A DNA stretch of 64,000 nucleotides from Athalassotoga saccharophila (GTDB taxonomy: Bacteria; Thermotogota; Thermotogae; Mesoaciditogales; Mesoaciditogaceae), in contig NZ_AP019551.1 of NCBI RefSeq assembly GCF_009936215.1, positions 1,326,708 to 1,390,707 on the forward strand, read 5' to 3'. Below, in pieces: positions 18,312 through 35,057 of the stretch. How positions within the stretch are numbered: the stretch's first letter is position 1; every line of letters starts with the position of its first letter. The notes under the pieces were generated by a model that searched no databases, was not told the DNA's origin, and worked only from the letters and a program-made list of their open reading frames with translations. The position numbers and the translations under genes are program-made.

Positions 18312-18329
18312 TAAAAAATATTGTACATT

Positions 18330-19517
18330 TTAAGATGCTTTTTGGTATCCTTTCCCGAAGATCAGAAAGATGAGAGTTCCGATAAGTCCAAATGTGAAGG
18401 CCGTCAAGAAATTCACCGCCGGTGATATGATCCACAAAAAGGCACTCAAAAAAGCAACTATCGATACGATACCATCTCTCACGAGGTAATAGGTTCCAAA
18501 AGTTCCAGCCTTCTGGCCCTCTGGAGAAAGATCCATTATCAGAGATTTTCTTGTTGGTTCGCCAAATTCTTTAAGACCCCTTATTACAAATGCAACGATT
18601 AAAAGTTCAAAACTTCTTGAGAAAAGCAGAATAAGTGGAAAGAGAGTGAAAAAACCGAAAGTTATAACCACAAATGGCTTTTTCGCGTGTCTATCGGCAA
18701 GATACGCAACGGGCACATAAATTATCATGGCTGTTAACATTTCTATCATTGTCAATATTCCAAACTGAAAAGCATCAAGGCCATTCTTCTCGACCACCCA
18801 CACAACGACGAAAGCATAGGGAATCTGTTCGCAAAACCTTACAAATATATCGGATATCAATAGGATACCAAGATTCCCTTTTAGATTTTTAAGCATTGCC
18901 ATTATTTTGACGGGAGCCGATTTTTTGCCGGAATCTTTTATAAAAGCGTTAAAGATGAAGATAGACACAATGGCAAGGGCCATTGCTATGATAAATGAGA
19001 TCCTTATACCTTTTGTAATGCCGTAAAGATCTATCAAAATACCTCCGATAAGAGGGCCGAGCGCCATAGGAACTCTTCTGACAAGAGAATGCATCGAAAC
19101 TCCCATTACCCTTTTGTTTTTCGGTACGGCATCCGATATCAGGCTCATTATCGCAGGCATGGCGATTGCAGACCACGCGATGAAAAAAATTGCGCCGATG
19201 AGCACATATTGCCAAGCAGGTAATATTATGACTATCGCATATCCTATCATCGAAAAGAGGGTAAAAAATATAAGGGACTTTTTATAGCCTATCTTATCGC
19301 TTAAATAGCCTCCGGGAAATGAATATAGGGCTCCAAGCAAGTTTTGCATCCCGTTTAGAGCGCCCACAGAAATGGCACTTCCGCCGAGAGCGATTAAATA
19401 GAGTGGTAAAAATTTGTCACCCATGTATTGTCCCATGCCCACCATTATGACAAGTCCAAGCATGGAAAGCATGGAAGAATTTAGCGCGAAAAAATCCGTT
19501 AATCTTTTTTTGTTCAC
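18330..19517 (-). CDS. MFS transporter
   Basis: 395-residue major facilitator with about 12 hydrophobic segments. The loop 2-3 motif is visible as GGYLSDKIGYKKSLIF and its half-repeat as AYLADRHAKKPFVV. The GTG start overlaps the stop of the ChrB-like gene (GTGA), so the two are translated together; this suggests an exporter linked to oxyanion or metal stress, though the family itself does not show the substrate. It lacks the CHR domain of true ChrA chromate pumps. Confidence 0.88.
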   Translation of the reverse strand: MNKKRLTDFFALNSSMLSMLGLVIMVGMGQYMGDKFLPLYLIALGGSAISVGALNGMQNLLGALYSFPGGYLSDKIGYKKSLIFFTLFSMIGYAIVIILPAWQYVLIGAIFFIAWSAIAMPAIMSLISDAVPKNKRVMGVSMHSLVRRVPMALGPLIGGILIDLYGITKGIRISFIIAMALAIVSIFIFNAFIKDSGKKSAPVKIMAMLKNLKGNLGILLISDIFVRFCEQIPYAFVVVWVVEKNGLDAFQFGILTMIEMLTAMIIYVPVAYLADRHAKKPFVVITFGFFTLFPLILLFSRSFELLIVAFVIRGLKEFGEPTRKSLIMDLSPEGQKAGTFGTYYLVRDGIVSIVAFLSAFLWIISPAVNFLTAFTFGLIGTLIFLIFGKGYQKAS

Positions 19518-19939
19518 TTATATCTTACCTTTATAGCAGCGTAAAGTGCATCGTAGACCTTAAATTGTTCCTCAAGATTTTTGATGTCATCTGGATAAAT
19601 CAAAGAAAATCCGCTCGCCAGAATTTCAAGACCGGCAGCGTAAGGATCGTCGTCAAGATGGTTTGTATCAGCCGCATTTACGATTTCTCCCATCTTTTGC
19701 AAGGCGGGATCTGTTATCTTGTATTTTTCGAGAATTGAGAGAAAAGAACAATGTCCATCTTTATGACCAAGATCAACTCCTTCGATATCGAAAGGAATCG
19801 CATTTTCTCTTTGTGCCGTTTCCATCACCAGCGATTTTGCCACAAAGAGAAATTCTGCCTGACTATCAATGAACCTTTTTATCAACCACGGACAGGCAAC
19901 CCTATCGACATGAACATGAGATCTTGTCACCCATTTCAT
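19514..19939 (-). CDS. ChrB-like chromate resistance protein
   Basis: About 141 residues of the ChrB C-terminal type (the 'chromate resistance exported protein' family). Diagnostic segments are RSHVHVDRVACPWLIKRFID near the start and VDLGHKDGHCSFLSILEKY in the middle. No signal peptide is seen. ATG 19939 is preferred over a TTG 27 bp upstream because AAAGGGATGA precedes it at good spacing. It heads a two-gene operon with an MFS transporter and is divergent from the copper operon. Family members are linked to chromate resistance; the biochemical role is not settled. Confidence 0.85.
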   Translation of the reverse strand: MKWVTRSHVHVDRVACPWLIKRFIDSQAEFLFVAKSLVMETAQRENAIPFDIEGVDLGHKDGHCSFLSILEKYKITDPALQKMGEIVNAADTNHLDDDPYAAGLEILASGFSLIYPDDIKNLEEQFKVYDALYAAIKVRYK

Positions 19940-19957
19940 ATAATCATCCCTTTCTTG

Positions 19958-19987
19958 CTTGATCAAATATAAGTATACCCGATCAAG
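19958..19987. promoter_or_regulatory. Inverted repeat upstream of the chrB-like gene
   Basis: CTTGATC (19958-19964) and GATCAAG (19981-19987) form a perfect 7-bp inverted repeat with a 16-bp spacer. The spacer contains a minus-strand TATACT that could be the -10 of the chrB/MFS operon. This geometry fits an operator, but no regulator gene is adjacent other than csoR. Confidence 0.45.
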
Positions 19988-20114
19988 TTAAAATTTTGAA
20001 TCATTCGGCTCAAATACCACATAAGATACGTAAAATTGGCAGTTTTGAGTTGGTAGCCGTCCGCTTTTAACAAACAATTATTTTTTCCTTTACTTCAAAG
20101 AAACAAATGTATTC

Positions 20115-20151
20115 TACAATGAAATTGATCCCTACCCTGTGGGGGTGGGAT
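20115..20151 (+). promoter_or_regulatory. copA promoter -10 with CsoR-type operator
   Basis: A -10 TACAAT (20115-20120) is followed at 20128-20151 by a GC-rich pseudo-palindrome, ATCCC..CCC....GGG..GGGAT, in an otherwise AT-rich stretch. This closely resembles the CsoR operator of copper operons (the C-tract/G-tract dyad described in Mycobacterium and Bacillus). It lies 30 bp before the copA start, at or just after the expected transcription start. A csoR gene is third in the operon. Confidence 0.8.
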
Positions 20152-20181
20152 ATATGGAGAAGTTTCGGAGGATGTGAAAAT

Positions 20182-22368
20182 ATGCAGGAGAAAGAGGTAA
20201 AGTTGGACATAGAAGGGATGACCTGCGCATCGTGCGTGAAAGCAGTCGAAAAATCGATATCTAAACTCGAAGGAGTCTCTTTCGTATCTGTGAACCTTAT
20301 GGATGAAAAGGCCATTGTGAAATTCGATCCGGCAGTTGTAAAAGTGAAAGATATGGAAAAAAACGTGAAAAAGGCCGGCTACGGAGCAACCCTTATCTTA
20401 GACGATGATTACGATCGCGACGAGATGAAGCGTAAAAAAACAGTTCGTACCTTCAGAAACAGGTTCATCTTTTCTGCCATATTCGCGTCACCTCTGCTGT
20501 TCATTTCGATGGCACATACATTTGGTCTTACATTGCCTGCCATAATTTCTCCGGATCTTTCTCCTTTGAATTTTGCGCTTGTTCAGATACTGCTTGTCAT
20601 ACCTATAATCATCTTCGGAAGAAATTTTTATATAAAAGGTATCCCTTTGCTTTTCAAAGGGGAGCCCAACATGGACACATTGGTAGGACTTGGCACGGGA
20701 GCGGCTATAATTTACAGTTTGTTTTCGACCGTCGAGATAATTTTAGGTCACCCCAAGTATGTCTCGGGTCTGTATTTTGACACGGCAGGGGTTATTGTCA
20801 CACTTATTTCTTTGGGAAAATACTTAGAAAATCTTTCAAAATCGAGGACATCTACGGCTATAAAAAAGTTAATGAGTCTCAAGCCCAAAACGGCAATCTT
20901 GAAGTCTGGAAATACACAAAAAGAGATTCCAGTTGACGAGGTTGAAGTTGGCGATATTTTAATAGTCAAAGCGGGAATGATAGTACCTGTCGATGGTGTC
21001 GTTCTGTCCGGTAACGCCTCAATAGATCAATCAATGTTAACTGGAGAGCCAATACCCATAGACGCATCAAAAGGTACCCATGTTTCTGCTGGAAGCATTA
21101 ATTTAGATGGAATGATAGAGATTGAAGCACAAAAAGTTGGAAAAGACACCGTCATTTCGAAAATAATAAAGTTGATCCGCGATGCTCAATCATCGAAAGC
21201 GCCGATAGCCCGGCTCGCAGATATCGTAAGCGGATACTTCGTACCAATAGTCATAGGAATAGCGGCATTAACTTTTGTTGTATGGCTTTTGATCGGAATG
21301 GGCTTTATCTTTGCCCTTACGATGAGTATAGCCGTGCTCGTCATAGCATGTCCCTGTGCCCTTGGGCTTGCAACACCGACTGCGATAATGGTCGGAAGTG
21401 GAAAAGCGGCCGAAAATGGGATACTTTTCAAAAGCGGAGAAGCACTCGAAACTCTACGAAAGGTAAAGATCTTTGTCTTTGACAAAACCGGGACGATTAC
21501 ATATGGAAAGCCAAAAGTTGTGGATATTGTGCCTATAAATTACGACAGAGATGAATTTTTCAAAATCGCCGCATCGATGTCTTCAAAAAGTTCCCATCCC
21601 TTAGATAAAGCCATATCAAACGAATATAAATCTGAATTGTTCGACGTTGAGGATTTTCAGGTCATCGCAGGAAAGGGAATTACCGGGATAATAAAGGGGA
21701 AAAGGGTAAGAATGGGAAACGCAAAATTCATAGAATATGGAGGTGAACTTTCGGTAAAGGATGGAGAAACACCTGTCTTTGTAGAATATGATGGTAAAGT
21801 AATAGGCTTTATAGGTATTTCCGATGAAATAAACCCGACGGCCGTTAAAGCAATTAAAAAATTAAAACAAATTGGGAATGTTTACATGCTTACGGGAGAC
21901 AATGTCAAAATGGCACAAGTAATAGCGAAACAGGTTGGAATAGACGATTTCTTCGCGGAAATATTGCCCGATCAAAAGGCCCAAATAATCGAACAACTCA
22001 AGAAAAATGGCATCAAAGTTGCGATGATCGGTGATGGGATAAACGATTCTGTAGCACTCGCGAAGGCCGATGTTGGCATTGCCGTAGCATCCGGTACAGA
22101 CATAGCGATGGAAAGTGCGGATATAGTTTTAATGAAAAACGATTTAGAAGATATCGTCAAGGCAATAGAACTTTCAAACGCAACCATAAAGAATGTCAAA
22201 GAAAATCTTTTCTGGGCATTTTTCTACAATATTATAGGAATACCGATAGCGGCGGGAGTTTTGTACATGCCTTTTGGCATATCTTTAAATCCAATGATAG
22301 CGGCACTGGCAATGGCTTTTTCTTCAGTTACGGTTGTGACTAATGCTATAAGACTTAAGGGTAATTGA
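20182..22368 (+). CDS. copA: Copper-translocating P1B-type ATPase
   Basis: Exports Cu(I) across the inner membrane; 728 residues. One N-terminal metal-binding domain (GMTCASC), transmembrane CPC ion site in IACPCALGLATPTA, TGEP, DKTGTITYG phosphorylation site, SSHPLDKAI nucleotide-binding motif, and YN with MAFSSVTVVTNAIRL in the last helices. The hinge motif reads GDGINDSVAL where GDGINDAPAL is usual. I chose ATG 20182, with GGAGG 10 bp before it; an earlier in-frame start at 20107 would place the CsoR-like operator inside the gene. First gene of the copper operon. Confidence 0.96.
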   Translation: MQEKEVKLDIEGMTCASCVKAVEKSISKLEGVSFVSVNLMDEKAIVKFDPAVVKVKDMEKNVKKAGYGATLILDDDYDRDEMKRKKTVRTFRNRFIFSAIFASPLLFISMAHTFGLTLPAIISPDLSPLNFALVQILLVIPIIIFGRNFYIKGIPLLFKGEPNMDTLVGLGTGAAIIYSLFSTVEIILGHPKYVSGLYFDTAGVIVTLISLGKYLENLSKSRTSTAIKKLMSLKPKTAILKSGNTQKEIPVDEVEVGDILIVKAGMIVPVDGVVLSGNASIDQSMLTGEPIPIDASKGTHVSAGSINLDGMIEIEAQKVGKDTVISKIIKLIRDAQSSKAPIARLADIVSGYFVPIVIGIAALTFVVWLLIGMGFIFALTMSIAVLVIACPCALGLATPTAIMVGSGKAAENGILFKSGEALETLRKVKIFVFDKTGTITYGKPKVVDIVPINYDRDEFFKIAASMSSKSSHPLDKAISNEYKSELFDVEDFQVIAGKGITGIIKGKRVRMGNAKFIEYGGELSVKDGETPVFVEYDGKVIGFIGISDEINPTAVKAIKKLKQIGNVYMLTGDNVKMAQVIAKQVGIDDFFAEILPDQKAQIIEQLKKNGIKVAMIGDGINDSVALAKADVGIAVASGTDIAMESADIVLMKNDLEDIVKAIELSNATIKNVKENLFWAFFYNIIGIPIAAGVLYMPFGISLNPMIAALAMAFSSVTVVTNAIRLKGN

Positions 22369-22381
22369 AAGGAGATTAAAT

Positions 22382-22585
22382 ATGAAGTTGTACATTGATG
22401 GAATGACGTGTGAACATTGTAAGATGCGTGTGGAAAAAGCACTGAAAGAGATAAAGGGAGTTAAAAAGGCCGAGGTAAATCTCGATAATGGTACGGCAGA
22501 GGTAGAGACAAAAAAAGAGATCTCATTCGATACATTCAAAAGCGCAATAGAAGATGCCGGATACACGCTTGTGAGGGTAGAATGA
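22382..22585 (+). CDS. copZ: Copper chaperone CopZ
   Basis: 67-residue heavy-metal-associated domain protein with the Cu(I) site GMTCEHC and the ferredoxin-like beta-alpha-beta-beta-alpha-beta pattern. It hands Cu(I) to CopA, whose own N-terminal domain it resembles. The ribosome site AAAGGAGA precedes the ATG. It lies 13 bp after copA and 1 bp before csoR, in one operon. Confidence 0.95.
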   Translation: MKLYIDGMTCEHCKMRVEKALKEIKGVKKAEVNLDNGTAEVETKKEISFDTFKSAIEDAGYTLVRVE

Positions 22586-22586
22586 T

Positions 22587-22886
22587 ATGGAAGAATTTCA
22601 CGTTCACCATATGGCCGATCATCTAAAACATGAAGAGGCATTGAATCTTTTGAAAACTGCGAGAGGCCATCTCGATGCGGTTATCAAGATGATAGAAGAT
22701 GAAAGATATTGTGTTGATATCTCGACGCAACTGCTTGCGATAATAGCCCTTTTGAAAAAGGCAAATACATCGGTAATAAACAAACACATAGAAACATGTG
22801 TTAAAGATGCCATTAACAACGGAGATGTTGACGAAAAATTGAAAGAATTAGAAACGCTTATGAAGTACCTCGAAAAATCTTTGTGA
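22587..22886 (+). CDS. csoR: CsoR-family copper-sensing repressor
   Basis: 99-residue all-helical DUF156 (CsoR/FrmR/RcnR) repressor. The three Cu(I) ligands of CsoR are present as Cys in DERYCVDI and His and Cys in NKHIETCV, the C-H-C set that separates CsoR from nickel or formaldehyde sensors. An N-terminal extension holds several His (FHVHHMADHLKHEE). It should repress its own operon from the GC-rich dyad upstream of copA and release DNA on binding Cu(I). Confidence 0.93.
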   Translation: MEEFHVHHMADHLKHEEALNLLKTARGHLDAVIKMIEDERYCVDISTQLLAIIALLKKANTSVINKHIETCVKDAINNGDVDEKLKELETLMKYLEKSL

Positions 22887-22898
22887 GGGAGGACTGAA

Positions 22899-23282
22899 AT
22901 GAAAGTTGTTGAAAGAAAGATAAAAACTAAGGATTTTGAAGTTGTGAAGAATAAATTGAAAGATCTTGTGAATTCTCATAACTTTGCCGTGCTTGCCGAG
23001 CATGATTTTGGTGCGATTCTGAAATCGAAGGGTAAAAATCTCGGGAAAAATGCGATCGTTTTTGACATATGCAACGCATCGAAGGCCCATGAAATTTTGA
23101 CGATCTCTCCAATCGAGGGAATAAATTTACCCTGCAAGATCGGAATTTTCGAAGAGTCAAATGGTTACCATGTTGCATATCTTGATCCAAAAGCAATAGA
23201 GACAAATGATGAAAGTCTGAAATCCATTTTCAAGGAAATAAGCGGAGTGCTTGAGGAAATATCGTTAAAACTTTCTGAGTGA
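22899..23282 (+). CDS. DUF302 domain protein
   Basis: 127 residues with the DUF302 signature: AVLAEHDFGAILKSKGKNLG, VFDICNASKAHEIL and LPCKIGIFEESNGYHVAYLDP. Family members are small alpha/beta proteins of unknown function that are often found near redox or metal genes. GGAGG precedes the ATG and it lies 12 bp after csoR, so it is probably in the copper-controlled operon. Confidence 0.85.
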   Translation: MKVVERKIKTKDFEVVKNKLKDLVNSHNFAVLAEHDFGAILKSKGKNLGKNAIVFDICNASKAHEILTISPIEGINLPCKIGIFEESNGYHVAYLDPKAIETNDESLKSIFKEISGVLEEISLKLSE

Positions 23283-23296
23283 ATGGAGATGGTGCC

Positions 23297-23533
23297 ATGA
23301 AAAAAATAGATCCAATCGACGAAAACACGACGATAAAAGAAATACTCGATAAAGATCCGTCATTGCAGTCTGAACTTTTAAAACTTGGGTTTAACACGTG
23401 CTGTGCAAAAATGCAGACAATCAAGAATTTTGCCCAAGAAAAACAGATCGATGTAAGAAAAGCAATGGAAGTTTTGAACACAAAGATAGAAGAGATAAAC
23501 GAAGTAAACGAAATTTTAGAAGAAGGGATGTGA
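23297..23533 (+). CDS. DUF1858-like (redox disulfide) small protein
   Basis: 78 residues. The N-terminal half matches the DUF1858 / ScdA-N pattern: TTIKEILDKDPSLQSELLKLGFNTCCAKMQTIKNFAQ, with a vicinal CC pair. Related domains accompany hybrid-cluster and iron-sulfur repair proteins. The C-terminal half is a charged helix. ATG 23297 with GGAGATGG upstream is preferred over a GTG 18 bp earlier. It follows the DUF302 gene and may share copper control; function not known. Confidence 0.75.
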   Translation: MKKIDPIDENTTIKEILDKDPSLQSELLKLGFNTCCAKMQTIKNFAQEKQIDVRKAMEVLNTKIEEINEVNEILEEGM

Positions 23534-23537
23534 AAAT

Positions 23538-23837
23538 ATGATGTGGTGGTACGGAGGTCCTGGATTTGGTAATTGGGGTGGATATGGTTGGGGCTGGGGC
23601 GGAGGATTGCTTATGATGATAATAGGCATTTTAGGATTTCTTTTTGTGCTTTGGGGAATAGTCATGATCGTAAGATGGTCTACAATGGGAACTCACCGGC
23701 CGTATCGCACCTATCGCAATCATTATTACCGAAACAATTACGATGATGCCGTCTCTGCGCTTAAGATGAGGTACGCCAGAGGAGAGATCACAAAAGAAGA
23801 GTACGAAAGAATGCTACGAGATTTAATGAATAACTGA
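23538..23837 (+). CDS. Small membrane protein with C-terminal SHOCT domain
   Basis: 99 residues. A Gly/Trp-rich N-terminus (WWYGGPGFGNWGGYGWGWGGG) leads into one transmembrane helix, then a Tyr/Arg/His-rich linker and a SHOCT oligomerisation domain (LKMRYARGEITKEEYERMLRDL). SHOCT proteins of this form are common next to copper-efflux genes. It starts 4 bp after the preceding gene; a short GTGCC...GGCAC hairpin follows the stop and may end the operon. Confidence 0.85.
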   Translation: MMWWYGGPGFGNWGGYGWGWGGGLLMMIIGILGFLFVLWGIVMIVRWSTMGTHRPYRTYRNHYYRNNYDDAVSALKMRYARGEITKEEYERMLRDLMNN

Positions 23838-23854
23838 AACCTTTGATCCGGCAG

Positions 23855-23930
23855 GTGCCCATAATGGCACGTAGCACGTGGCTCGTAGCATGTAGAATTG
23901 AGAATTGAAAAATTTCAATTGACAATTGGA
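23855..23930. repeat. Low-complexity intergenic repeat tract with hairpins
   Basis: Three elements in a row: a GTGCC-CATAAT-GGCAC hairpin (23855-23870), a degenerate repeat of GTAGCACGTGGCTCGTAGCATGTAG type (about 23871-23895), and an AATTG-rich tract (23896-23929) that includes a perfect 8-bp hairpin AATTGAAA/TTTCAATT. No coding potential was seen. Similar AATTGA and GTAGC tracts occur as scattered intergenic repeats in other genomes. Confidence 0.6.
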
Positions 23931-24021
23931 ATAGATTCGCTTCTCAGACTGTGCTATGAAGGTCTCGTGGGCATCCGACTTTTGAAGTGAGTTTAGATAC
24001 TCTAAGAAGGAGATGATTTTT

Positions 24022-24189
24022 ATGGAAGAGAAATTGTTCAAATGTGATATATGCGGCCTGCATTACAAAGAGGAATCTCTTGCAAAACAATGCTACGAGT
24101 GGTGTTCTACTCACAATGGAAGTTGCAACGTGGAAATTACCAAATACTCCGTTGAAGCCCAATCAAAATCGAAATTTTCAATAAAGTAA
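24022..24189 (+). CDS. Small Cys-rich (zinc-ribbon-like) protein
   Basis: 55 residues, with an AAGGAGATGA ribosome site 6 bp upstream. The sequence starts MEEKLFKCDICGLHYKEESL and has further cysteines in QCYEWCSTH and GSCNVEI, so six Cys and two His could form a zinc or iron-sulfur site. Similar CxxCGLHYxxxxxAxxCxxWC proteins of 50-60 residues occur in archaea and thermophilic bacteria near metal or redox genes; the function is unknown. It stands alone after the copper operon. Confidence 0.75.
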   Translation: MEEKLFKCDICGLHYKEESLAKQCYEWCSTHNGSCNVEITKYSVEAQSKSKFSIK

Positions 24190-24246
24190 ATTTTGCCAAA
24201 AAAGTTTTACAATGATATTTTTTGCTTCCATGACGATATATGAATC

Positions 24247-24285
24247 GTGATATTCTCCTATTTCTTGGGAGAATTCTTGCTTAAA
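24247..24285 (-). mobile_element. IS200/IS605-like right-end footprint (remnant)
   Basis: Read on the minus strand this is TTTAAGCAAGAATTCTCC, a short hairpin region, then GGAGAATATCAC. The first 18 bases are identical to those at 33291-33308 on the plus strand, and the closing GGAG.AT.TCAC also matches. This arrangement is what I know from right ends of tnpB-carrying IS200/IS605 elements. No tnpB or tnpA remains beside it. Confidence 0.55.
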
Positions 24286-24318
24286 GTTGAAATCTACTTT
24301 GGAAAAGAGGTGATTGAA

Positions 24319-24519
24319 ATGTTACCGATCCAGCAATTACCGGCTGTACCACATTTAATCTTTGGGATTTTCAATTTGTCAGTTCCAGATTTGATTGTAT
24401 GGGTGATTGTTATAGGTGGCTTTTTCTTTGCCGCATGGCTAAGGTTACCTAAAATCTTCGAAGGGAGAGAAAAGCAAAATGAATCTGACAAGAAAAACTC
24501 AAGAAATGATAAGAGATAA
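24319..24519 (+). CDS. Small single-span membrane protein of unknown function
   Basis: 66 residues, not recognised. A hydrophobic helix (residues about 24-43, DLIVWVIVIGGFFFAAWLRL) is followed by a charged, Lys/Asn-rich tail. ATG 24319 follows AAGAGGTGA. It overlaps the cytochrome b gene downstream by 41 bp, which argues that it is a small accessory subunit of that complex. A promoter-like TTGCCA-17-TATTTT lies at 24193-24221. Confidence 0.6.
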   Translation: MLPIQQLPAVPHLIFGIFNLSVPDLIVWVIVIGGFFFAAWLRLPKIFEGREKQNESDKKNSRNDKR

Positions 24520-25086
24520 CATGTCAATGGAGGATGCACTGCCGACAAAGATGCCGGTATACGTTAACTCATTTGCCTATATTTTTGGAGTCATAACACT
24601 TTCGGCTCTGGGTTTTGTCGTGATAACGGGGATAATCCTTGCAGCCTTTGGCCCTCAATGGTATCACTTTTCAAATGCTGGTCATTTTTTCAATTCTTTA
24701 CACTTTTGGGGAGTTCAGATTTTTTTGCAGCCTTGATTGCGCATTTACTCACAAAGTTTTTCATGGCGGCATGGAGAGACGGACGATGGAAAACATGGGT
24801 AATCGGTATGTTTGCATTTGCACTGTCAATTTTTGAAGCCTACACAGGTTATCTTTCGCAAACGAACTGGGATTCTCAATGGATTGCGGTTCAGGCAAAA
24901 GATGCTATGAACGCGCTTGGCATAGGAGGATTTTTTAATACAATGAATACGGCCCAGGTTCTAACATTGCATGTTGCGGTTATTCCTTTGATACTTGTCG
25001 CTTTTGTGCTCATTCATCTTATCGTCGTAAGAAGTGACGGGCCTGTGAAACCATTAGAGGAAAAAGATTCGGGGCGAAAAAAATGA
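24479..25086 (+). pseudogene. Cytochrome b6-like N-terminal subunit, frameshifted
   Basis: Quinol-oxidising cytochrome b, N-terminal half (b6-like), broken by a one-base shift in a T7 run at 24720-24726. Adding one T restores a 202-residue protein. It then has paired haem histidines: LHFWG and LIAHLL 14 residues apart, and LTLHVAV and VLIHLIV 15 apart, the latter spacing as in b6-type proteins. As read, translation stops after 85 residues (VQIFLQP). ATG 24479 has GGGAGAG 8 bp upstream. The frameshift may be a true mutation, a sequencing error or transcript slippage on the T-run. Confidence 0.75.
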
Positions 25087-25767
25087 GTCGAAAAACAGAT
25101 GAGTACTTTAAAGATGTCCCAATGAAATCTTACGATCTTATAAAAGAAGGATTAATTGTCTTTGGTGTTGTATCTGCATTGATAATTGTCCTCGCAGTAA
25201 TCTTCGGTTCTCCAGATTATCCAACGGTTACGGCAAAACAATGCGTCGCCCCAACAACGTCAGGTATGGATTGACAATTATTCAAAAGCGCTCGACAATG
25301 CAACTGTTGTGAATGAAAAAGTCCAAATCGTAAATGGAGATTACGGACCCTTGCCGGTGATGATGAATGGCTTGCTTTTGCTTGGTAAGTCCGGACTTTT
25401 AGAAGGCGCCCTTCAAAAGAATGAATCTCCTTACGATTTTTACAATTTGAATTACACAAAACCTTTACTTCTGTTTCAGGGTAAAGTGTACCATAGCGTG
25501 GCAAAATCTTTGAATATGCTTGGAGAAGATTGGGGAATTTCAAATGAAACGGGAAATTATCCCGGTGCGTGGTGGTTGTGGCCATACACTTTCTTTTACC
25601 AAATTCCTCCCATGTCAACTTCTCCAAACGGAGATTTGGAAGTTGGACTTATAATGATAGGTCTGTTTTTGGTACTTCTATTTTTGCCCGTTATCCCTAT
25701 TTTAAACAAAATTCCGAAATGGGTTAAAGTTTACAGAATTATCTGGAGAGATTGGTACAAAAGATGA
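25083..25767 (+). pseudogene. Cytochrome b C-terminal (subunit IV-like) protein, frameshifted
   Basis: Second half of the split cytochrome b. The first frame gives MSRKTDEYFKDVPMKSYDLI, one membrane helix and PDYPTVTAKQ, then a stop. The rest continues in the next frame as QVWIDNYSKALDN ... WWLWPYTFFYQIPP ... PKWVKVYRIIWRDWYKR. Removing one C from the CCCC run at 25249-25252 restores about 227 residues. No canonical PEWY quinol-site motif is seen. The ATG overlaps the preceding gene by 4 bp and its stop overlaps the methyltransferase start. No Rieske or cytochrome c gene is nearby. Confidence 0.72.
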
Positions 25768-26480
25768 GTGAAAGGATAAATTCCATCTTTTCGAAAATAC
25801 ACAAAAATTATGATGCAATGAACAGGATCATGAGTTTTGGGATCGATGTGAGATGGAGAAAGATAGCCGCTAAAAAGATGATAGAGGACATCGGTCAAAA
25901 TTCAAAGATTTTGGATATAGCGACGGGTACAGGAGATCTGGCGCTTGCGATTTACGATACGGCCGAAAAGTCGAACAAAAAAATTGAGTTGTATGCGATG
26001 GACATAAACAAAGAAATGATAGAAATCGCAAAGAAAAAATTTGGGAACAGAAAAATAAGCGTGATACATGGAGATGCGTTGAAAATGCCATATTCCGACA
26101 ATTTTTTTGATGCCATAAGTGTTGGATTCGGAGCAAGAAATTTTGATGATCTCAAAATTTTTTCTGATGAATTAATGAGAGTACTTAAAGATGGAGGCTT
26201 TTTTGTCATAATGGATATGGCTTTGCCCAAGAAAAAATATCAACGCATGCTTTTCAAGTTCTATTTTCAGATAATACGTTTTTGGGGACATTTCATAGAC
26301 AGAGAATCTTATGAATGGCTCATATCAAGTATAGAACATTTTGACTTTGAAAAATTCAAAGTCATTTTGGAAAAGAGTGGATTCGAAAATGTAAGATACG
26401 ATCCTCTAAGTTTTGGGATAACTTACGTGATTTCTGGAAAGAAAGGTAAAAGGGTGCTTGACAAAACTAAAGAGTTGTGA
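25764..26480 (+). CDS. menG: Demethylmenaquinone/ubiquinone methyltransferase (MenG/UbiE)
   Basis: SAM-dependent C-methyltransferase that completes quinone synthesis, 238 residues. The family hallmarks are present: FSKIHKNYDAMNRIMSFGIDVRWRK at the start, the SAM loop ILDIATGTGDLAL, and the MPYSDNFFDAISVGFGARNFDD segment. ATG 25764 overlaps the cytochrome b stop (ATGA), so the two are translated together. This links a quinone to the b-type complex. No other men genes are in the window, so the substrate could be menaquinone or a related quinone. Confidence 0.88.
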   Translation: MSERINSIFSKIHKNYDAMNRIMSFGIDVRWRKIAAKKMIEDIGQNSKILDIATGTGDLALAIYDTAEKSNKKIELYAMDINKEMIEIAKKKFGNRKISVIHGDALKMPYSDNFFDAISVGFGARNFDDLKIFSDELMRVLKDGGFFVIMDMALPKKKYQRMLFKFYFQIIRFWGHFIDRESYEWLISSIEHFDFEKFKVILEKSGFENVRYDPLSFGITYVISGKKGKRVLDKTKEL

Positions 26481-26796
26481 AGTGCATGAAATGATTGTGA
26501 TATATTAATTTCCGGGGTATTAACTTGAGATTTTTAATAGTTAAAGACTCGATTACGGAAGCCCAATGATTGCGTAGTGTTAATGCTTTTTACGACGTCT
26601 TGCACAAATTTGTAGCAACTTCGATTTGTGGTATTATAAAAATGGTGTCTCCTTTCTTTGTTCTCTAATCCAATGATACCTCATTGGAAAAGAATAGGAG
26701 ACACCTTATACTTCCAGTTGGTGATAAAATAAAACATGGTGTTAAGAAAGGGAAAATCGCCAGATAATGAACTCAAACAATTAAAGGAGGTTAAAA
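26481..26796 (+). other. 316-bp intergenic region before kdpA
   Basis: The longest gap in the window. It holds a possible promoter (TTGTAG 26610-26615, 16-bp spacer, TATTAT 26632-26637), a large nested stem-loop (26644-26705), an AAAGGAGG ribosome site for kdpA, and about 120 bp after menG in which I see nothing identifiable. No c-di-AMP riboswitch motif was recognised. Confidence 0.6.
26644..26705 (+). promoter_or_regulatory. Nested stem-loop in the kdp leader
   Basis: An outer stem of 16 bp (GGTGTCTCCTTTCTTT with its complement, one bulged T) encloses a 9-nt bulge and a perfect 8-bp inner stem TCCAATGA-TACC-TCATTGGA. It begins about 7 nt after the predicted -10, so it would be the very 5' end of the kdp mRNA. 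There is no T-run after it, which speaks against a terminator. It may be an RNA control element or the relic of a small inverted-repeat element. Confidence 0.6.
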
Positions 26797-28542
26797 TTGA
26801 CGAACGGTTTGAGTAATATCAGTATTGCACTTGACTTACTTGAATTTGGAATTTTCTTTGTCATTTTAACATTGATCGTCAAACCAGTTGGAAAATACAT
26901 AGCGGCAGTTTATACCGGAAAAAGGACTTTTTTAAGTCCTTTAATTTCTCCGGTTGAAAAATGGATTTATCGTCTAACAGGTATTGATGCCAATCAAGAG
27001 ATGAACTGGAAAGAATATACTCTTTCCATGTTGTTGTTTAATTTTATAGGTTTCATAGCGCTATTTTTGATACTCATCTTTCAGGGTTCTCTGCCTTTAA
27101 ACCCTGAACATTTCAAGGGATTTTCTTTGTCTTTGGCTTTCAACACGGCGATCAGTTTTATCACAAACACAAACTGGCAAGCCTATTCTGGAGAATCTAT
27201 GGCAAGTTATTTCACACAAATGGCAGGATTTGCTGTACAGAATTTTTTATCGGCCGCCACCGGTATGGCGATCCTGATGGCATTGATACGAGGGATCTCG
27301 CGTAAAAACACCAAAGCAATTGGGAATTTTTGGTCTGACATAACAAAAGGCACACTTTACATCTTACTTCCATTATCAATAATAGCAGCCGTTTTTTTCG
27401 TGTCTCAGGGCGTCATACAAAACTTTAACTCTTACAAAACAATTGACTTTCTCCAGCCTATTGTCACGCAAAGTGGAACAGTAACACATCAAATTCTGCC
27501 AATGGGACCCGTTGCCTCTCAAGAAGCGATAAAACTACTCGGCACAAATGGAGGAGGGTTCTTTGGAGCAAATTCAGCACATCCATATGAAAATCCAAAT
27601 CCTCTGACGAATTTTATTGAAGCATTCCTGATAATTTTGATACCTGCCTCGTTGACATACACGTTTGGCAAAATGGTGGGCGATACAAGGCAGGGATGGG
27701 CCATATATATAGTTATGCTTTCCATATTGATTATCTTTTTAGGTGTACAATATTATTCCCAAATAAGAGGCGATCCTCTAATAACCAATATGGGGGTTTC
27801 TGGGCCTTACATGGAGGGAATGGAATCGAGATTTGGAGTGGGTGGTACTGTACTCTTTTCGACAGTTACAACGGGTGTAGCCTGTGGGGCTGTCAATGCG
27901 TCTATGGATTCATTAACGCCGATAGGCGGCATGAGTTCAATGCTGCTCATTCTTTTGAGCGAGGTTGCGTTTGGAGGAATTGGATCGGGTCTGTACACAA
28001 TGCTTGCCTTTGTGATCATAGCCGTGTTCATAGCGGGACTTATGATAGGCAGAACTCCCGAGTACATGGGTAAAAAAATAGAAGTAAAAGAAATGTGGAT
28101 GGCCGTTATAACGGCTTTAACCTCAGGAATTGTGATACTTATATTTACATCGATAGCATTGGTAACAAAAAGCGGAACATCTGCCATTTTAAATCCCGGA
28201 GCACATGGATTAAGCGAGATTCTTTACGCGTTTGCTTCAACGGCAAATAACAATGGAAGCGCATTTGCAGGATTGAGTGCTAACACACTCTTTTACAACT
28301 TAACGACTGGTTTTGCAATGCTTATTGGTAGATATATTCCTGCCATAGCCATTCTTGTCATGTCCGGATCTTTGGCAGAAAAAAAATATACGCCGCCCAA
28401 CGCTGGTACATTACCGACACACAAACCAGCATTTATGGTATGGCTCTTTGCGATCGTCATAATAGTTGGTGCCCTGACATTCTTTGCAGCCCTTGCGATG
28501 GGTCCTGTTGTTGAAAATCTCATCATGTGGGGAGGCATTTGA
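26797..28542 (+). CDS. kdpA: K+-transporting ATPase subunit A
   Basis: Potassium-conducting channel-like subunit of the high-affinity Kdp pump, 581 residues, about 10-12 hydrophobic segments. Four pore-loop-like regions of the KdpA type are seen, for example [44 protein letters not shown] and [15 protein letters not shown] 26797 is the start, 8 bp after AAAGGAGG. No kdpF gene was seen between the leader and kdpA. First gene of kdpABCD. Confidence 0.96.
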
Positions 28543-28543
28543 C

Positions 28544-30598
28544 GTGCAATCAAGGGATAATTCCATTTTCGATTCAAAATTGTTAAAAAGTGCTTTGAAA
28601 GGGTCTTTCAAAAAATTAAATCCGTTTGCTTTATATTCAAACCCTGTCATGTTGGCAGTTGAGATAGGCAGTATCATAACAACTTTGGAATTCGCATTCA
28701 CATTGTTTTCACATCGTGGAAGTCCTATATGGTTTTCGGGCATGATCTCTTTATGGCTTTGGTTAACAGTACTTTTCTCGAATTTTGCCGAATCAATAGC
28801 TGAAAGTCGTGGAAAAGCAAGGGCAGAATCGATGAGAAAGACAAGAACTGAAGTAATGGCAAAAAAACTCAAAAAACCTTCCTTTGACAGTGCATACGAC
28901 ATGGTACCATCTACGAAATTGCAAAAAGGTGATTTAATACTCGTTGAAGCGAATGATCTTATAGCAAGTGATGGAGAAGTGATAGAAGGAGCAGCCCTTG
29001 TAGATGAATCGGCAGTTACGGGAGAATCGGCGCCAGTTGTAAGAGAGGCAGGAGGAGATAGAAGTGCCGTCACAGGCGGAACAAAGGTCATATCAAATAA
29101 GATCATAGTGAAGGTAACGTCAGATCCGGGCGAAACCTTCCTTGATAAAATGATTTCACTTGTAGAAGGGGCAAAAAGAAGAAAGACACCAAATGAAGTG
29201 GCTCTTGAGGTATTACTCATATCGTTAACCGTGATTTTCATACTTGTTGTCATAAATTTAAGTGCACTTTCCATTTACAGTGTTCAATCGGTTGGAAGAG
29301 GTACACCGGTATCATTGACTATACTCGTTGCCCTTTTCGTTTGTCTTGCTCCGACTACGATAGCCGCTCTGCTACCGGCCATTGGAATTGCAGGTATGGA
29401 TAGATTGTTCAGAAAAAATGTCATCGCTCTTTCGGGAAAGGCAATAGAAGCGGCCGGAGATGTAAATGTTTTACTTTTGGATAAGACAGGTACGATAACA
29501 CTCGGAAACAGGGAAGCGGCCGAGTTCATCCCGGTTGGAAATCATACGGAGCAGGAATGCGCTGAGGTTGCATTGATGTCTTCGCTAACAGACGAAACTC
29601 CCGAAGGAAGAAGCATCGTTGTTTTTGCAAAAACAAAGTATAAATTGCGTGTAACGGAAGTGCCGAAGAATGCAAAAACTATAAATTTTAGCGCAAAAAC
29701 AAGAATGAGCGGCATAGATATTGAAAACCATAGTTATCGTAAAGGATCTGCCGATGCGATGATAGAGTACATAAAAAATTTAGGTGGAAAGATCCCGGAT
29801 GATCTTCAACAAAAAGTAGAAAAAGTCGCTAAAGCTGGAGGTACTCCTCTTGTTATAAGTAAAGACGCCGAAATAATAGGCGTTATAAATCTTAAAGACA
29901 TTTTGAAAAAAGGTATTCAGGAACGCTTTCAACAGTTAAGACGCATGGGAATAAAAACCATTATGATAACGGGGGATAATCCTCTTACGGCAGCAACTAT
30001 CGCTGCCGAAGCCCAGGTTGATGATTTTGTTGCTGAGGCGAAACCAGAGGATAAATTGAAACTTATCAAACAATACCAAGAACAGGGATACATGGTCGCC
30101 ATGACTGGAGATGGTACAAATGATGCTCCTGCACTCGCTCAAGCAGATGTTGCTGTGGCTATGAACACGGGAACGCAACCTGCGCGCGAGGCCGCAAACG
30201 TCATAGATCTTGACAGTAATCCAACGAAATTGCTCGATATAGTGGAAATAGGAAAGCACATATTAATGACAAGAGGTGCATTGACGACATTTAGCATCGC
30301 AAACGATATAGCAAAATACTTTGTCATTATTCCGGCCGCCGTGGCATCAATATATCCACAATTACAAATTTTGAATATCATGCATCTTACAAATCCATAT
30401 CTTGCTATTTTATCGGCTGTCATATTCAACGCGATAATAATTCCGATCCTGATCCCGCTTGCTTTGAAAGGAACATGGTATAAACCTATGCCGGCGGATA
30501 AGTTGCTAACTTACAATTTGCTTATCTATGGAGGCGGTGGTTTGATAGTTCCTTTTATCGGCATAAAATTGATCTACATGTTTATAAGTTTGATATGA
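28544..30598 (+). CDS. kdpB: K+-transporting ATPase subunit B
   Basis: P1A-type ATPase that hydrolyses ATP for K+ uptake, 684 residues. Visible motifs: TGESAPV, the phosphorylation site [12 protein letters not shown], the KGSADAM nucleotide-binding segment and hinge [27 protein letters not shown] 28544 follows the kdpA stop by one base with GGGGAGG upstream; in-frame starts further up lie inside kdpA and are unlikely. The distal membrane region with [15 protein letters not shown] is intact. Confidence 0.97.
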
Positions 30599-30608
30599 GG
30601 TGGACAGC

Positions 30609-31190
30609 ATGATAAAACAATTAAAAGCATCCATTTTGATCTTCGTGATTTTATTCGTGATAGTTGGTTTTTTGTATCCTTTACTTATAACGGTAATTGG
30701 AAACGTTTTTTTTCCGTGGCAAGCGAATGGAAGCATAATTTACAAAGGCAATGAACCGATAGGATCTGAATTGATAGGACAACCATTTTCAAATCCAGGT
30801 CTTTTTTGGTCGAGACCATCTTCCACCGCCGAATTTCCATACAATGCTCTCGATTCCGGTGGATCTAATCTTGGTCCAACAAACAAAATGCTTATAGACC
30901 GTGTTGAAAACAGAATAAAGATACTTAGAAATTCCGGTATAACCGGCAGCATCCCTTCCGAACTTGTTCTTGGATCAGGAAGTAATTTGGATCCAGATAT
31001 CAATTTGGAATCCGCGCTTGTGCAAATTCCGAGAATATCTAAAGTTACTCATATACCTGAAAATGTTTTGAGAAATCTTGTCTTTGAGCATTTAAATGGC
31101 AGAACCTTTGGATTCATGGGAGCAAGGGTTATAAATGTTTTGGAATTGAATTTAGCATTGATGAATTTGGAGAAAGTATATGGCAGATGA
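30609..31190 (+). CDS. kdpC: K+-transporting ATPase subunit C
   Basis: 193-residue KdpC with one N-terminal membrane helix (ILIFVILFVIVGFLYPLLITVIG) and the family segments GSELIGQPFSNPGLFWSRPSS, ASGSNLDPD-like GSGSNLDPDI and LNLALMNL near the end. It stabilises the KdpAB complex and ATP binding. ATG 30609 is preferred over a GTG 9 bp upstream because GAGGTGG precedes it at proper distance. Overlaps kdpD by 11 bp. Confidence 0.96.
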   Translation: MIKQLKASILIFVILFVIVGFLYPLLITVIGNVFFPWQANGSIIYKGNEPIGSELIGQPFSNPGLFWSRPSSTAEFPYNALDSGGSNLGPTNKMLIDRVENRIKILRNSGITGSIPSELVLGSGSNLDPDINLESALVQIPRISKVTHIPENVLRNLVFEHLNGRTFGFMGARVINVLELNLALMNLEKVYGR

Positions 31191-33138
31191 AGAGGTAAGA
31201 CCATCTCCGGAAGAATTACTTGAAATAGCAAATAGAGAAGAAAAATCTAAGCGCGGGAAATTGACCATTTATTTTGGAGCCGCTCCTGGCGTAGGGAAAA
31301 CTTATGCCATGCTCAGCGATGCTCACGCGCGGAAAGCCGAAGGCATAGATGTTGTTATAGGTTACGTTGAAACACATAAAAGGCCCGAAACTGAAGCATT
31401 GCTCGATGGTTTAGAAATAATACCTCCTTTGATCACAGATTACAAGGGAATAAAACTTCAAGAAGTGCCAATCGAAAAGATCAAAGAAAGGAAACCACAA
31501 CTTGTAATCATAGACGAACTTGCTCATACCAATGCTCCCGGGTCCAAGAACATGAAAAGATACCAAGATATTGAAGAAATTCTTAACTATGGAATAGATG
31601 TTTACACGGCAATGAACGTGCAGCATCTTGAAAGTTTAAAGGATGTTGTCTTTCAAATAACCAATATAAGGGTCCATGAAACCGTCCCGGACAAATTTGT
31701 GATGGAAGCAAACGAGATAAAATTGGTGGATCTACCTCCGGAAGAACTTTTAAAGCGTCTCCGAGACGGAAAGGTATACGTTAAAGACATGGCCGAGCAG
31801 GCTGTACATAAATTCTTTAGACCCGGTAATTTACTTGCGCTTCGTCAATTGGCTCTAAGGGTTTTGGCAGATAACGTTGATGAAAAAATGCGCAATTACA
31901 TGAAAGCTCATGCCATAGCAGGTCCTTGGGTTACAAAGGAAAGAGTGCTTGTTGGAATATTTGCAAGTCCTTACGCGGAAAAACTTGTGAGGGCGACTTA
32001 CAGATTGGCAAATGAACTTGGTGCTGAATGGATCGCCTTACATGTTGAAACGGGAAAAAACAAGGATTTTTCCGCACAAGAAAATAAATGGCTAAATGAT
32101 GCTCTCGAACTTGCAAGAAGTTTGGGTGGGTGGGTTGCGTGGGTGAAAGGTAATGATGTGACACATGAAATAATAAATTACGCTAAAAGCCATAATGTAA
32201 ATAAGATAATAATAGGGAAACCTAAAAAAGCCGGCCTTTTTCATACAATTTCCGATAGATTTATATTCGAAGCCAAAGGAATAGACATCTACATGATAGA
32301 AACTCAAATTGATAAAACTTCCTTTGAAAGACCGAAATACCATTTCAGAGTACATGAATTTTTGAATTACCTGTCGAGTGCCGCCGGTGTTGCACTTGCT
32401 ACTGGAATATCATTGCTTTTAAAAAATCAACTGACGGGATTTGACATGATGTTCATCTTCTTAATTCCTTTGGTGTTAACGGCACTTTACCTTGGAATAG
32501 GGCCATCTATATTTGCAATTTTTTTGAGCATTTTAACCTATGACTATCTCTTCACCCGCCCATATTTCAGTTTCGAGATCTCCGATTTCAGTCATTTAAT
32601 TTCATTCGTCGTTTACACAAGCATAGTTGTTGTCATAAGTATACTCGCCTCCCAATCAAGAAAAAGGGTCTTCTTGTTAAAAGAAAGTGAATCGAGAAGC
32701 AATGCTCTTTATGAATTCAGCAGAGATCTTGCTACGGTCGAGAGCGTCGATAATGTGCTTTCTCTTATGGTAAATCATATAAAAAGATTATTTAATTGTG
32801 AAATAGCCATTTTTCTTCTTGAAGGAGAAAAACTTTCAATTGTAGCAAAAACAGAGAATTTTGAGATAAATACTGAATCATCTGGTATAGCTTCGTGGGT
32901 ATTGATAAACAAAAAACCCGCAGGTTTTGGCACCGAAACGATATCAAATGCAAAGGTTTTCTGTTTACCCTTGATGACCTCTAAAGATGAAGCCATAGGT
33001 GTTATAGAATTCGATTTCATGGGAAATAAACAAATTCTCACAATGGAAAACATAATTGTACTTGAAACAATAAGCCACATTGGGGCCATGGCAATAGAGA
33101 GAATAAAAAACATAACAAACAAGACAGATTCGAATTGA
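31180..33138 (+). CDS. kdpD: KdpD-type sensor protein lacking the histidine kinase module
   Basis: 652 residues; full KdpD is about 890. Domains in order: KdpD N-terminal domain with Walker A GAAPGVGKT (about residues 32-40) and VIIDELAHTNAPGS; a universal-stress-protein-like domain (about 245-370); four closely spaced membrane helices (about 390-490); a GAF domain (about 515-640). The protein stops at ...ITNKTDSN exactly where HisKA and HATPase domains should begin. No kdpE follows. It may still bind a ligand and act by interaction, as short KdpD forms are suggested to do, or be a decayed sensor. A possible insertion-sequence end lies 150 bp downstream. Confidence 0.92.
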   Translation: MADEEVRPSPEELLEIANREEKSKRGKLTIYFGAAPGVGKTYAMLSDAHARKAEGIDVVIGYVETHKRPETEALLDGLEIIPPLITDYKGIKLQEVPIEKIKERKPQLVIIDELAHTNAPGSKNMKRYQDIEEILNYGIDVYTAMNVQHLESLKDVVFQITNIRVHETVPDKFVMEANEIKLVDLPPEELLKRLRDGKVYVKDMAEQAVHKFFRPGNLLALRQLALRVLADNVDEKMRNYMKAHAIAGPWVTKERVLVGIFASPYAEKLVRATYRLANELGAEWIALHVETGKNKDFSAQENKWLNDALELARSLGGWVAWVKGNDVTHEIINYAKSHNVNKIIIGKPKKAGLFHTISDRFIFEAKGIDIYMIETQIDKTSFERPKYHFRVHEFLNYLSSAAGVALATGISLLLKNQLTGFDMMFIFLIPLVLTALYLGIGPSIFAIFLSILTYDYLFTRPYFSFEISDFSHLISFVVYTSIVVVISILASQSRKRVFLLKESESRSNALYEFSRDLATVESVDNVLSLMVNHIKRLFNCEIAIFLLEGEKLSIVAKTENFEINTESSGIASWVLINKKPAGFGTETISNAKVFCLPLMTSKDEAIGVIEFDFMGNKQILTMENIIVLETISHIGAMAIERIKNITNKTDSN

Positions 33139-33218
33139 CAGGTTTTATCTTGAGTGAATTCAATGATAAATGGATCGTGCAAAGTTGTAAATCCAAAGAC
33201 CGTTGAAGTTATAAGGGA

Positions 33219-33337
33219 AAAAGGAAGGTTAGCAAATACTTAAATGATCTGTCTGCCCCAACAGATAGAAATTTAGAGTTTTAACGTCCTTTTAAGCAAG
33301 AATTCTCCTACTTCTATAAGTGGTGGGAGCATGTCAC
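33219..33337 (+). mobile_element. IS200/IS605-like tnpB tail and right-end remnant
   Basis: 33291-33308 reads TTTAAGCAAGAATTCTCC, followed by an ACTT-CTAT-AAGT hairpin and GGAGCATGTCAC, matching in inverse orientation the footprint at 24247-24285. One frame here reads APTDRNLEF-stop-RPFKQEFSYFYKWWEHVTE; the KQEFSYFY part is the kind of C-terminal tail that TnpB proteins have when they run into the element end. Two in-frame stops show it is dead. The rest of the element is absent. Confidence 0.5.
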
Positions 33338-33385
33338 TGAAAGCTTTAATTTTCCTTCATCTGTAAGAAATCTTTTTAGCGTACA

Positions 33386-33397
33386 ATCTGTACAGAT
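33386..33397. promoter_or_regulatory. Palindromic operator candidate before the DHA2 exporter
   Basis: ATCTGTACAGAT is a perfect 12-bp palindrome that overlaps a possible -10 TACAAT (33382-33387). Half-site-like copies ATCTGTA (33359-33365) and ACAGAT (33407 region) flank it. It lies about 28 bp before the exporter's ATG and may be the site of a TetR or MarR-type repressor, which is not encoded nearby. Confidence 0.5.
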
Positions 33398-33424
33398 ATA
33401 TCTTAACAGATAGAGGTGCAATGC

Positions 33425-35026
33425 ATGCCAGAAAAAAACATTTCAAGAAGAATTGCCTTTGGTGCTTTGGCGACGGTTATGCTTGGTGTCTTTATGTCTT
33501 CAATGGATCAAACCGTCGTTGGAACTGCGATGCCGAGAATAATAGATGAACTGGGAGGAATGTCTTTATATTCATGGGTCTTTACGGCCTATATGTTAGC
33601 ATCGACTATTTTCATACCAATCTTTGGTAAGATGTCAGATATTTTCGGAAGGAAATACTTCTACATGGGCGGTATGCTTACATTCATGGCCTTTTCATGG
33701 ATTGCAGGCCTTTCTCAGAACATATACTGGCTCATAGGAGCAAGGGCCTTTCAGGGGATAGGCGCTGCGGCTCTCATGGCAGTTGGCCCTGCCATAATAG
33801 GTGATGTCTTTACCCCAAGAGAAAGGGGAAAGTACCAAGGCCTAATAGGAGCCGTTTTTGCGGTATCGAGTATAATCGGCCCTTTGATAGGAGGATACCT
33901 TACAGATCGGATAAGTTGGCACTGGGTATTTTACGTTAACATGCCAATAGGAATACCCGCACTCGTTATGGCTTACTTCTTCCTGTCGAAAGAACTTGGC
34001 GGCAACTCAAAGGCTAAAGTCGATTATTGGGGATCAATATTACTTGGCGGAATGATCTTTTCTCTTTTGATGGGACTTTCTTACGCTTCTATTGACAATT
34101 CATGGATCGAGCCTCAGGTTTGGGGACTCTTTATAATCTCTGCGATGCTTTTTGTTCCATTTTATTTTGTCGAGAGAAAAATACAGGAACCTATTTTGGA
34201 ATTGAAATTGTTCAAAAATCAAGTGTTTACCGTTGCAAACTCAATGAATTTTCTCGTCGGATTCTCTCTATTTTCTCTCTCTGTTTATATCCCTCTGTTC
34301 GTTCAGGGAGTTCAAGGCCAGTCGGCCACAAATTCAGGGCTAATTCTTATGCCCGTCATGCTTGCATCGATGGCATCGAGCGTATTGGGTGGATTTTACA
34401 TATCACGGGCTGGGAAATACAAACTCGTATTCATTGCCGGATCGATTTTGACAACGATAGGATTGTTTTTAATATCTCGTATAACTTACGACGTTCCTAT
34501 CTTAAAACTTGACACCTATATGATACTTGCAGGCTTTGGTGTTGGAGTTACAATGGGTATGATGATGGTTGTCATTCAAAGTGCCGTTGATAGAAAATAT
34601 ACGGGCCTTGCCCTTTCATCTGTCCAATTTTTCAGGAGTATAGGAGGAACTGTCGGGACGGCCGTATTTGGCACGATTGTAAACACGACTTACACTTCAC
34701 AATTGACCGGTATTCCGAAAATATTGGATTATATGCTTCCAAAGGATTTACTCTCTTCGATGAATTCGCCTCAGTTTCTCATGAATAAAAATCAAATTCT
34801 TTCAAAAACGCCTGTAACGATTCACGCGATTTTGAACGGGGTCTTTAACGATATGGCAAAATATCTTGCAAATTCCATAACCTATGCCTTTTTGATTGCC
34901 GCGATCGCTTCAATAGGATTGATAGTGCTTTCCATTGCTATAAAAAGGATAAAGATAATCGAAGATACGCAAAAGAGTACTGCAAAAACAAAATTGGCCC
35001 GCAGAAAAGCGATAAGCGAGGATTGA
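33425..35026 (+). CDS. MFS drug exporter, DHA2 (EmrB/QacA) type
   Basis: 533 residues with about 14 hydrophobic segments, the DHA2 pattern. Motif D1 appears as MSSMDQTVVGTAMPRI, motif A as GKMSDIFGRKYFYMGG, motif B as GARAFQGIGAAALMAVGPAIIGD and motif C as GAVFAVSSIIGPLIGGYL. It probably exports lipophilic compounds by proton antiport. ATG 33425 with AGAGGTG upstream is preferred over GTG 33416. It stands alone: IS remnant before it, tRNA-Gly after it. Confidence 0.93.
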   Translation: MPEKNISRRIAFGALATVMLGVFMSSMDQTVVGTAMPRIIDELGGMSLYSWVFTAYMLASTIFIPIFGKMSDIFGRKYFYMGGMLTFMAFSWIAGLSQNIYWLIGARAFQGIGAAALMAVGPAIIGDVFTPRERGKYQGLIGAVFAVSSIIGPLIGGYLTDRISWHWVFYVNMPIGIPALVMAYFFLSKELGGNSKAKVDYWGSILLGGMIFSLLMGLSYASIDNSWIEPQVWGLFIISAMLFVPFYFVERKIQEPILELKLFKNQVFTVANSMNFLVGFSLFSLSVYIPLFVQGVQGQSATNSGLILMPVMLASMASSVLGGFYISRAGKYKLVFIAGSILTTIGLFLISRITYDVPILKLDTYMILAGFGVGVTMGMMMVVIQSAVDRKYTGLALSSVQFFRSIGGTVGTAVFGTIVNTTYTSQLTGIPKILDYMLPKDLLSSMNSPQFLMNKNQILSKTPVTIHAILNGVFNDMAKYLANSITYAFLIAAIASIGLIVLSIAIKRIKIIEDTQKSTAKTKLARRKAISED

Positions 35027-35028
35027 AC

Positions 35029-35057
35029 TTGATTTAGAATATCTCTTATGGTAAAAT
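35029..35057 (+). promoter_or_regulatory. Promoter of tRNA-Gly
   Basis: TTGATT (35029-35034), 17-bp spacer, TAAAAT (35052-35057), 8 bp before the mature tRNA 5' end. A second reading, TTGAAC with TATGGT at 18 bp, overlaps it. Confidence 0.7.

Follow-up and report, generated by a model that had tools for sequence, protein, structure and literature searches.

Probable single-hairpin 53-bp derivatives of a TnpB-only IS200/IS605 element in Athalassotoga saccharophila NAS-01 and their relation to a kdp region apparently exchanged between species

A window of 64,000 nucleotides was analysed from the complete genome of Athalassotoga saccharophila NAS-01 (phylum Thermotogae; circular contigs of 1,957,762, 43,703 and 43,534 bp), in which two short inverted repeats surround a 9-kb segment. 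On the plus strand, this segment holds two cytochrome b-type genes (24479-25767; Pfam Cytochrom_B_N_2), the methyltransferase gene menG/ubiE (25752-26480; Pfam Ubie_methyltran), which is syntenic in the sister species G002 and G003, and the reading frames kdpA (26797-28542), kdpB (28484-30598), kdpC (30600-31190) and kdpD (31180-33138). Both cytochrome b genes are broken: alignment with the G002 genes places a frameshift at about 24721 and a deletion of 254 bp at about 25240. The latter are intact and contiguous with menG, with no bracketing repeats, and in G003 the pair is absent at the locus. Moreover, matching to a three-gene operon of G002 revealed two fossils, both on the plus strand: the first 90 bp of its first gene, with an in-frame stop (26526-26615), and the end of its third gene (33163-33240), which measures 540-550 aa in the sisters. 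Across the whole NAS-01 genome, that operon is matched only at 26526-26615 and 33163-33230, flanking kdp. From their sequences, we take the three genes to encode an ATP-grasp ligase-like protein, an opine dehydrogenase-like protein and a 540-aa protein.

The 18-mer TTTAAGCAAGAATTCTCC appears exactly at 24268-24285 (minus strand) and 33291-33308 (plus strand), with 4e-6 exact copies expected by chance per window and 1e-4 per genome, or 0.17 chance matches per window when up to three mismatches are allowed. A hairpin and a GGAG.AT.TCAC tail were found at both sites, and the two copies are inverted relative to each other with their 3' ends pointing outward, exactly as had been described from the sequence. 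Both belong to a dispersed 53-bp element, whose consensus over copies across the whole NAS-01 genome is TTTAA followed by CGYCYTTTTAAGCAAGAATTCTCCCACTTCTATAAGTGGTGGGAGCATGTCAC. A covariance model search of the whole genome gave ~16 copies, of which 12 are good and 4 decayed; the 43.5-kb plasmid pATS2 carries one of them, and three copies are mutually identical. The element has one hairpin, located 8 nt from its right end, its ends are not inverted repeats and its length is too short for coding a transposase. Copies are mostly intergenic, and in four cases (L001, L002, L003 and L004) the reading frame upstream ends with its stop codon immediately before the copy, which fits the TTTAA target. 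The right copy of the window (33285-33337, plus strand; bounds taken from the empty sites at other copies) is an intact 53-bp miniature, a fusion of a left end (LE) and a right end (RE) with one hairpin, scoring 90.2 bits over 33280-33337 with a covariance model (R1) built from the other copies. It directly follows a TTTAA (33280-33284, plus strand), a target that precedes all good copies, is not duplicated and occurs singly in empty sites. The left copy (24247-24291, minus strand) is a decayed member of the same family, comprising 18 bp of LE sequence, a shortened hairpin and a GGAGAATATCAC end; 5 bases were lost after TTTAA and the hairpin loop was replaced. With a model built from the other copies, it reached 30.2 bits over 24291-24247 (E-values of 2e-4 in the window and 0.007 genome-wide), which is weak, yet its exact 18-mer is far beyond chance.

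A total of 61 genomes (NAS-01 and 60 relatives) were searched for copies, and close copies of the 53-bp element were found only in NAS-01 and in the sister species G002 (MAG FK4.bin83, a draft), where 68 were detected. Of these, 65 were classifiable: 44 have the 53-bp form, 20 run from the hairpin into GGTGAGATGAATTGCTCTTTG and a single one is an aberrant palindrome. One further full-length copy (contig C11) leads into a tnpB gene, full-length parent copies thus amounting to 21, and the G002 tnpB genes end in GAGCGAGAAGCCCCCACTTCTATAAGTGGTGGGAGCATGTCAC. The parent is a TnpB-only IS200/IS605 element, and the ends of the 53-bp element match those of these full-length coding IS605-type elements. 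TTTAAGCAAGAATTCTCC, which also bounds the tnpB genes in G002, is a left-end sequence; the motif is IS200/IS605-like as proposed, but the two sites are not the right ends they had been called. The longest stretch common to the LE and RE of the parent is the 19-bp hairpin repeat CCCACTTCTATAAGTGGTG, and the miniature consists exactly of the LE up to this repeat and the RE from the repeat onward, switching from one to the other across it. Each site in the window thus carries both ends and is a whole miniature, rather than the edge of an element whose body had been lost inside the segment. At one G002 locus (L177, contig C25, 10430-10740), the sequence after the left end is an end in inverse orientation, which makes a near-perfect palindrome, a possible template-switch product.

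Insertion was documented by empty sites in the sister species. For copy L002, where the flanks are 85% identical, G003 reads AGGTTTTTTAA directly joined to CTTTTTATAACC and NAS-01 holds 53 bp after TTTAA; the aligned empty site on G003 contig C90 is TTTTTTAA followed by CTTTTTATAACC. For copy L010, the empty site on G002 contig C69 reads TTTAA followed by TTTTGAAGTATTG. Both keep one TTTAA and show no target duplication, and the copy at L003 is likewise absent in G003. Insertion 3' of TTTAA without duplication is the behaviour of IS200/IS605 elements. In the comparison with the sisters, no copy was seen to be conserved at an orthologous position across species.

Regarding the enzymes, no tnpA was found in the NAS-01 window or genome using two models (Pfam PF01797 and NCBIfam NF033573), and no tnpB, tnpB trace or parent element was found in the complete genome with Pfam or with the G002 TnpB protein as query. 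The absence of both genes from this host is solid, and extends to the whole genome the lack of intact copies first noticed around the segment. Intact copies flanking tnpB, which the original prediction had proposed looking for, exist in G002 and not in NAS-01, which has no tnpB. TnpA was not found in any of the four genomes G000-G003 (G000 being NAS-01), of which G002 is a draft MAG where multi-copy contigs may be missing.

The DNA between the two copies has a history of its own. The three-gene operon (3.5 kb) is intact in G001, G002 and G003 at the place where NAS-01 has kdp, and its remnants on either side of kdp put the two kdp junctions, which lie within the operon remains, at 26,616 and 33,162. 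By this comparison, kdp replaced the inside of the operon. Homologous kdp DNA lies elsewhere in G002 (contig C7) and G003 (contig C24), and no kdp match was found in G001. Identity of the kdp genes is 87-92% to G002 and 78-84% to G003, against 65-77% and 79-87%, respectively, for the flanking genes, and kdp looks to have been transferred between species. More broadly, identity of the window to G002 is 83-92% over ~20-33 kb (20000-33140) and 65-77% outside, and that to G003 is 78-85% and 79-87%, so that G002 ranks above G003 only over ~20-33 kb. This reversal implies that Athalassotoga species lineages exchanged genes here, namely those for the copper ATPase and cytochrome b, menG and kdp. The kdp cluster would have come by a separate, deletion-coupled replacement within the operon, from DNA resembling that of the G002 lineage. 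Since kdp here is closer to G002 than to G003, its simple relocation from the L008 locus, the site of kdp in G003, was rejected.

In G001 and G002, the neighbours of a larger block (18320-35045, 16.7 kb; 18.3-35.0 kb) adjoin each other without it, the gene at 16.5-18.3 kb directly preceding tRNA-Gly (35066). Judged by synteny, this block is a variable island beside a tRNA gene, and the elements were not its vehicle. An MFS transporter gene at 33416-35026 has no close match at the locus in the three sister species, and the sequences most similar to it (68% DNA identity) come from other genera of the family. In addition, a 65-90 bp repeat with an inverted repeat and no Rfam match was noticed at 26618-26707. 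It recurs ahead of toxin-antitoxin-like genes in G001, close to a serine recombinase in G002, and also in G008. It was discarded as an IS end, as its relatives adjoin toxin-antitoxin-like genes (G002 and G001) or precede an unrelated gene (G008), with no transposase link. Rfam searches over the window and over 26,450-26,850 returned tRNAs only, with nothing at the elements or in the kdp leader.

Taken together, both sites are very probably 53-bp non-autonomous miniatures of a TnpB-only (IS1341-type) IS200/IS605 element, of the terminal-only PATE kind, which inserted independently of each other and are not the borders of a transposed unit, kdp having come by a separate replacement. That the two elements jointly brought in or moved the 9-kb segment, by composite transposition or recombination, is in comparison a very improbable explanation. 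It would account for an inverted pair surrounding genes whose position differs between species, and further copies mark other breakpoints: copy L011 joins two segments lying 7.8 kb apart in G003, copy L008 adjoins the gene that comes after kdpD in G003, and in G002 a miniature lies directly upstream of kdp with a right-end fragment downstream. However, in G003 the genes flanking the left site are neighbours in unchanged order, with no copy between them, and G002 has cytochrome b and menG followed by the intact operon, with kdp elsewhere. Furthermore, the kdp junctions fall in operon fossils and lie inward of the two copies, by 2.3 kb on the left and 0.1 kb on the right, and the ages of the two copies probably differ, the left being degenerate and the right nearly consensus. 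The pair thus does not form the boundaries of the gain, which are at 26,616 and 33,162, and none of the three sister species compared showed the empty site joining ~24.2 to ~33.4 kb that the original prediction had proposed looking for. Of the proposal that the segment was gained or reshaped through such elements, a gain or exchange of kdp stands, given its higher identity to G002 than to G003, and delivery between the elements fails on the G003 continuity and the kdp junctions; the separate insertion that had been offered as an alternative was the right reading. In general, the elements may have a role in rearrangement, some copies (L011 and L008) being at synteny breakpoints. Copy L011 (NAS-01 chromosome, 1835112-1835169) sits exactly at a segment junction, a position that a deletion or rearrangement at the element would produce; G001 and G002 have the two segments on separate contigs.

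As to how the miniature arose, the natural source, given the 19-bp repeat, is a repeat-mediated deletion of the core, of the kind published for ISHwa23 and HqIRS46. Such a deletion, between the two hairpins, would collapse the ~1.3-kb parent into the miniature, probably on a single-stranded lagging-strand template; no locus with the parent in one genome and the miniature in another was found, so we infer this collapse, unlike the observed structure, parent, target and empty sites, from sequence alone. The element may then have spread either through parents that collapsed later or through miniatures moved directly by TnpA in trans, an enzyme that we likewise infer. The LE subtypes CGTTTTTT, ACCCTTTT and AACCTTTT-TGAG occur in both miniatures and parents of G002, which argues for repeated collapse. 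There are also subtypes found only in miniatures, such as CGCTCTTT-TGAG (5/5), and copies of the same form cluster slightly in G002 (0.67 vs. 0.57 expected by chance, P-value of 0.024), which argues for some movement as miniatures. The G002 data fit both routes in part.

We tentatively put at a little under even chances the reading in which the single-hairpin 53-bp element is a complete substrate for a trans-acting single-strand transposase and spread to ~16 places in NAS-01, including a plasmid, before the enzyme was lost. If true, few known transposable elements would be smaller, and a single hairpin would be enough where two might have been thought necessary. A serious possibility, though we would not bet on it, is that each copy arrived as a full-length tnpB element and later lost its core, the miniature itself never moving; the several LE subtypes common to both forms in G002 point to repeated collapse, and core deletion across repeats is documented for the Haloquadratum PATEs. 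This is opposed by the ~16 miniatures of NAS-01 without any parent or tnpB trace, by three identical copies and one on a plasmid, and by the same-form clustering and miniature-only subtypes of G002. REP-like repeats moved by a RAYT-type transposase are hardly credible: the repeats are short, single-hairpin and mostly intergenic, but the genome has no Y1 transposase (PF01797 and NF033573), both ends of a tnpB element align collinearly with the repeat and there are only ~16 copies. Less credible still is a conserved regulatory RNA or terminator hairpin that is not mobile, even though several copies come after stop codons and the hairpin folds better than shuffled sequences for the consensus (z of −2.7) and the left copy (z of −3.2), since the same loci in the sisters lack the copy with precise empty sites, no Rfam family matches the window copies and, for the intact right copy, shuffled sequences fold equally well (z of −0.44). 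The NAS-01 miniatures are now probably immobile, as no tnpA is left.

The NAS-01 element has no terminal inverted repeats, a palindrome near its ends, a fixed target without duplication, the ends of a coding element, an apparent core deletion across a direct repeat of the palindrome and a non-coding size, all of them features of terminal-only PATEs. Among known cases, the closest is the ISHwa23 PATE of Haloquadratum walsbyi, which is terminal-only and 52 bp long, and the NAS-01 element is of the same kind in a distant phylum. There, a TnpB-only IS605-type parent of ~1.5 kb lost its core across a 19-bp direct repeat, the near-terminal palindrome, giving a 52-bp product; strain-specific insertions are all of the short form, there is no target duplication and intact tnpA is scarce (PMC3119063). 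Both cases are alike in parent type, 19-bp repeat, product length (52 vs. 53 bp) and pattern. In contrast, the host here belongs to the Thermotogota and not to the archaea, the element is a different one, and a complete genome without tnpA or tnpB is accompanied by a sister species having both forms. HqIRS46 of Haloquadratum likewise has a direct repeat at its palindromes, in its case of 22 bp, and a 52-bp terminal-only version, but its parent is itself a non-coding PATE. In bacteria, the PATE-like IS605 element of Halanaerobium hydrogeniformans is likewise an ends-only derivative, but it occurs once, retains 58 nt of tnpB together with a 160-nt RE and is no single-hairpin fusion (PMC7290912). 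REP/REPIN sequences with RAYT transposases resemble it in being hairpin repeats of very small size that are associated with Y1 enzymes (PMC8266576, PMC3116915), whereas NAS-01 has no RAYT and its sequence comes from the ends of a tnpB element. No report of a terminal-only PATE in Thermotogota was found in the open-access literature searched.

A route known from a haloarchaeon is thus now seen in a deep-branching thermophilic bacterium. The parent-rich G002, the parent-free complete NAS-01 genome and the clean empty sites make the mobility of a one-hairpin 53-mer by TnpA in trans directly testable. The result is also a correction to the likely mistake of reading solo IS605 hairpins as the borders of acquired islands. 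Lastly, hairpins ending in GGGTAGTTCAC/GGGTAATTCGC in G001 (L096, 1-320, and L049) suggest further families of solo IS605-type hairpins.
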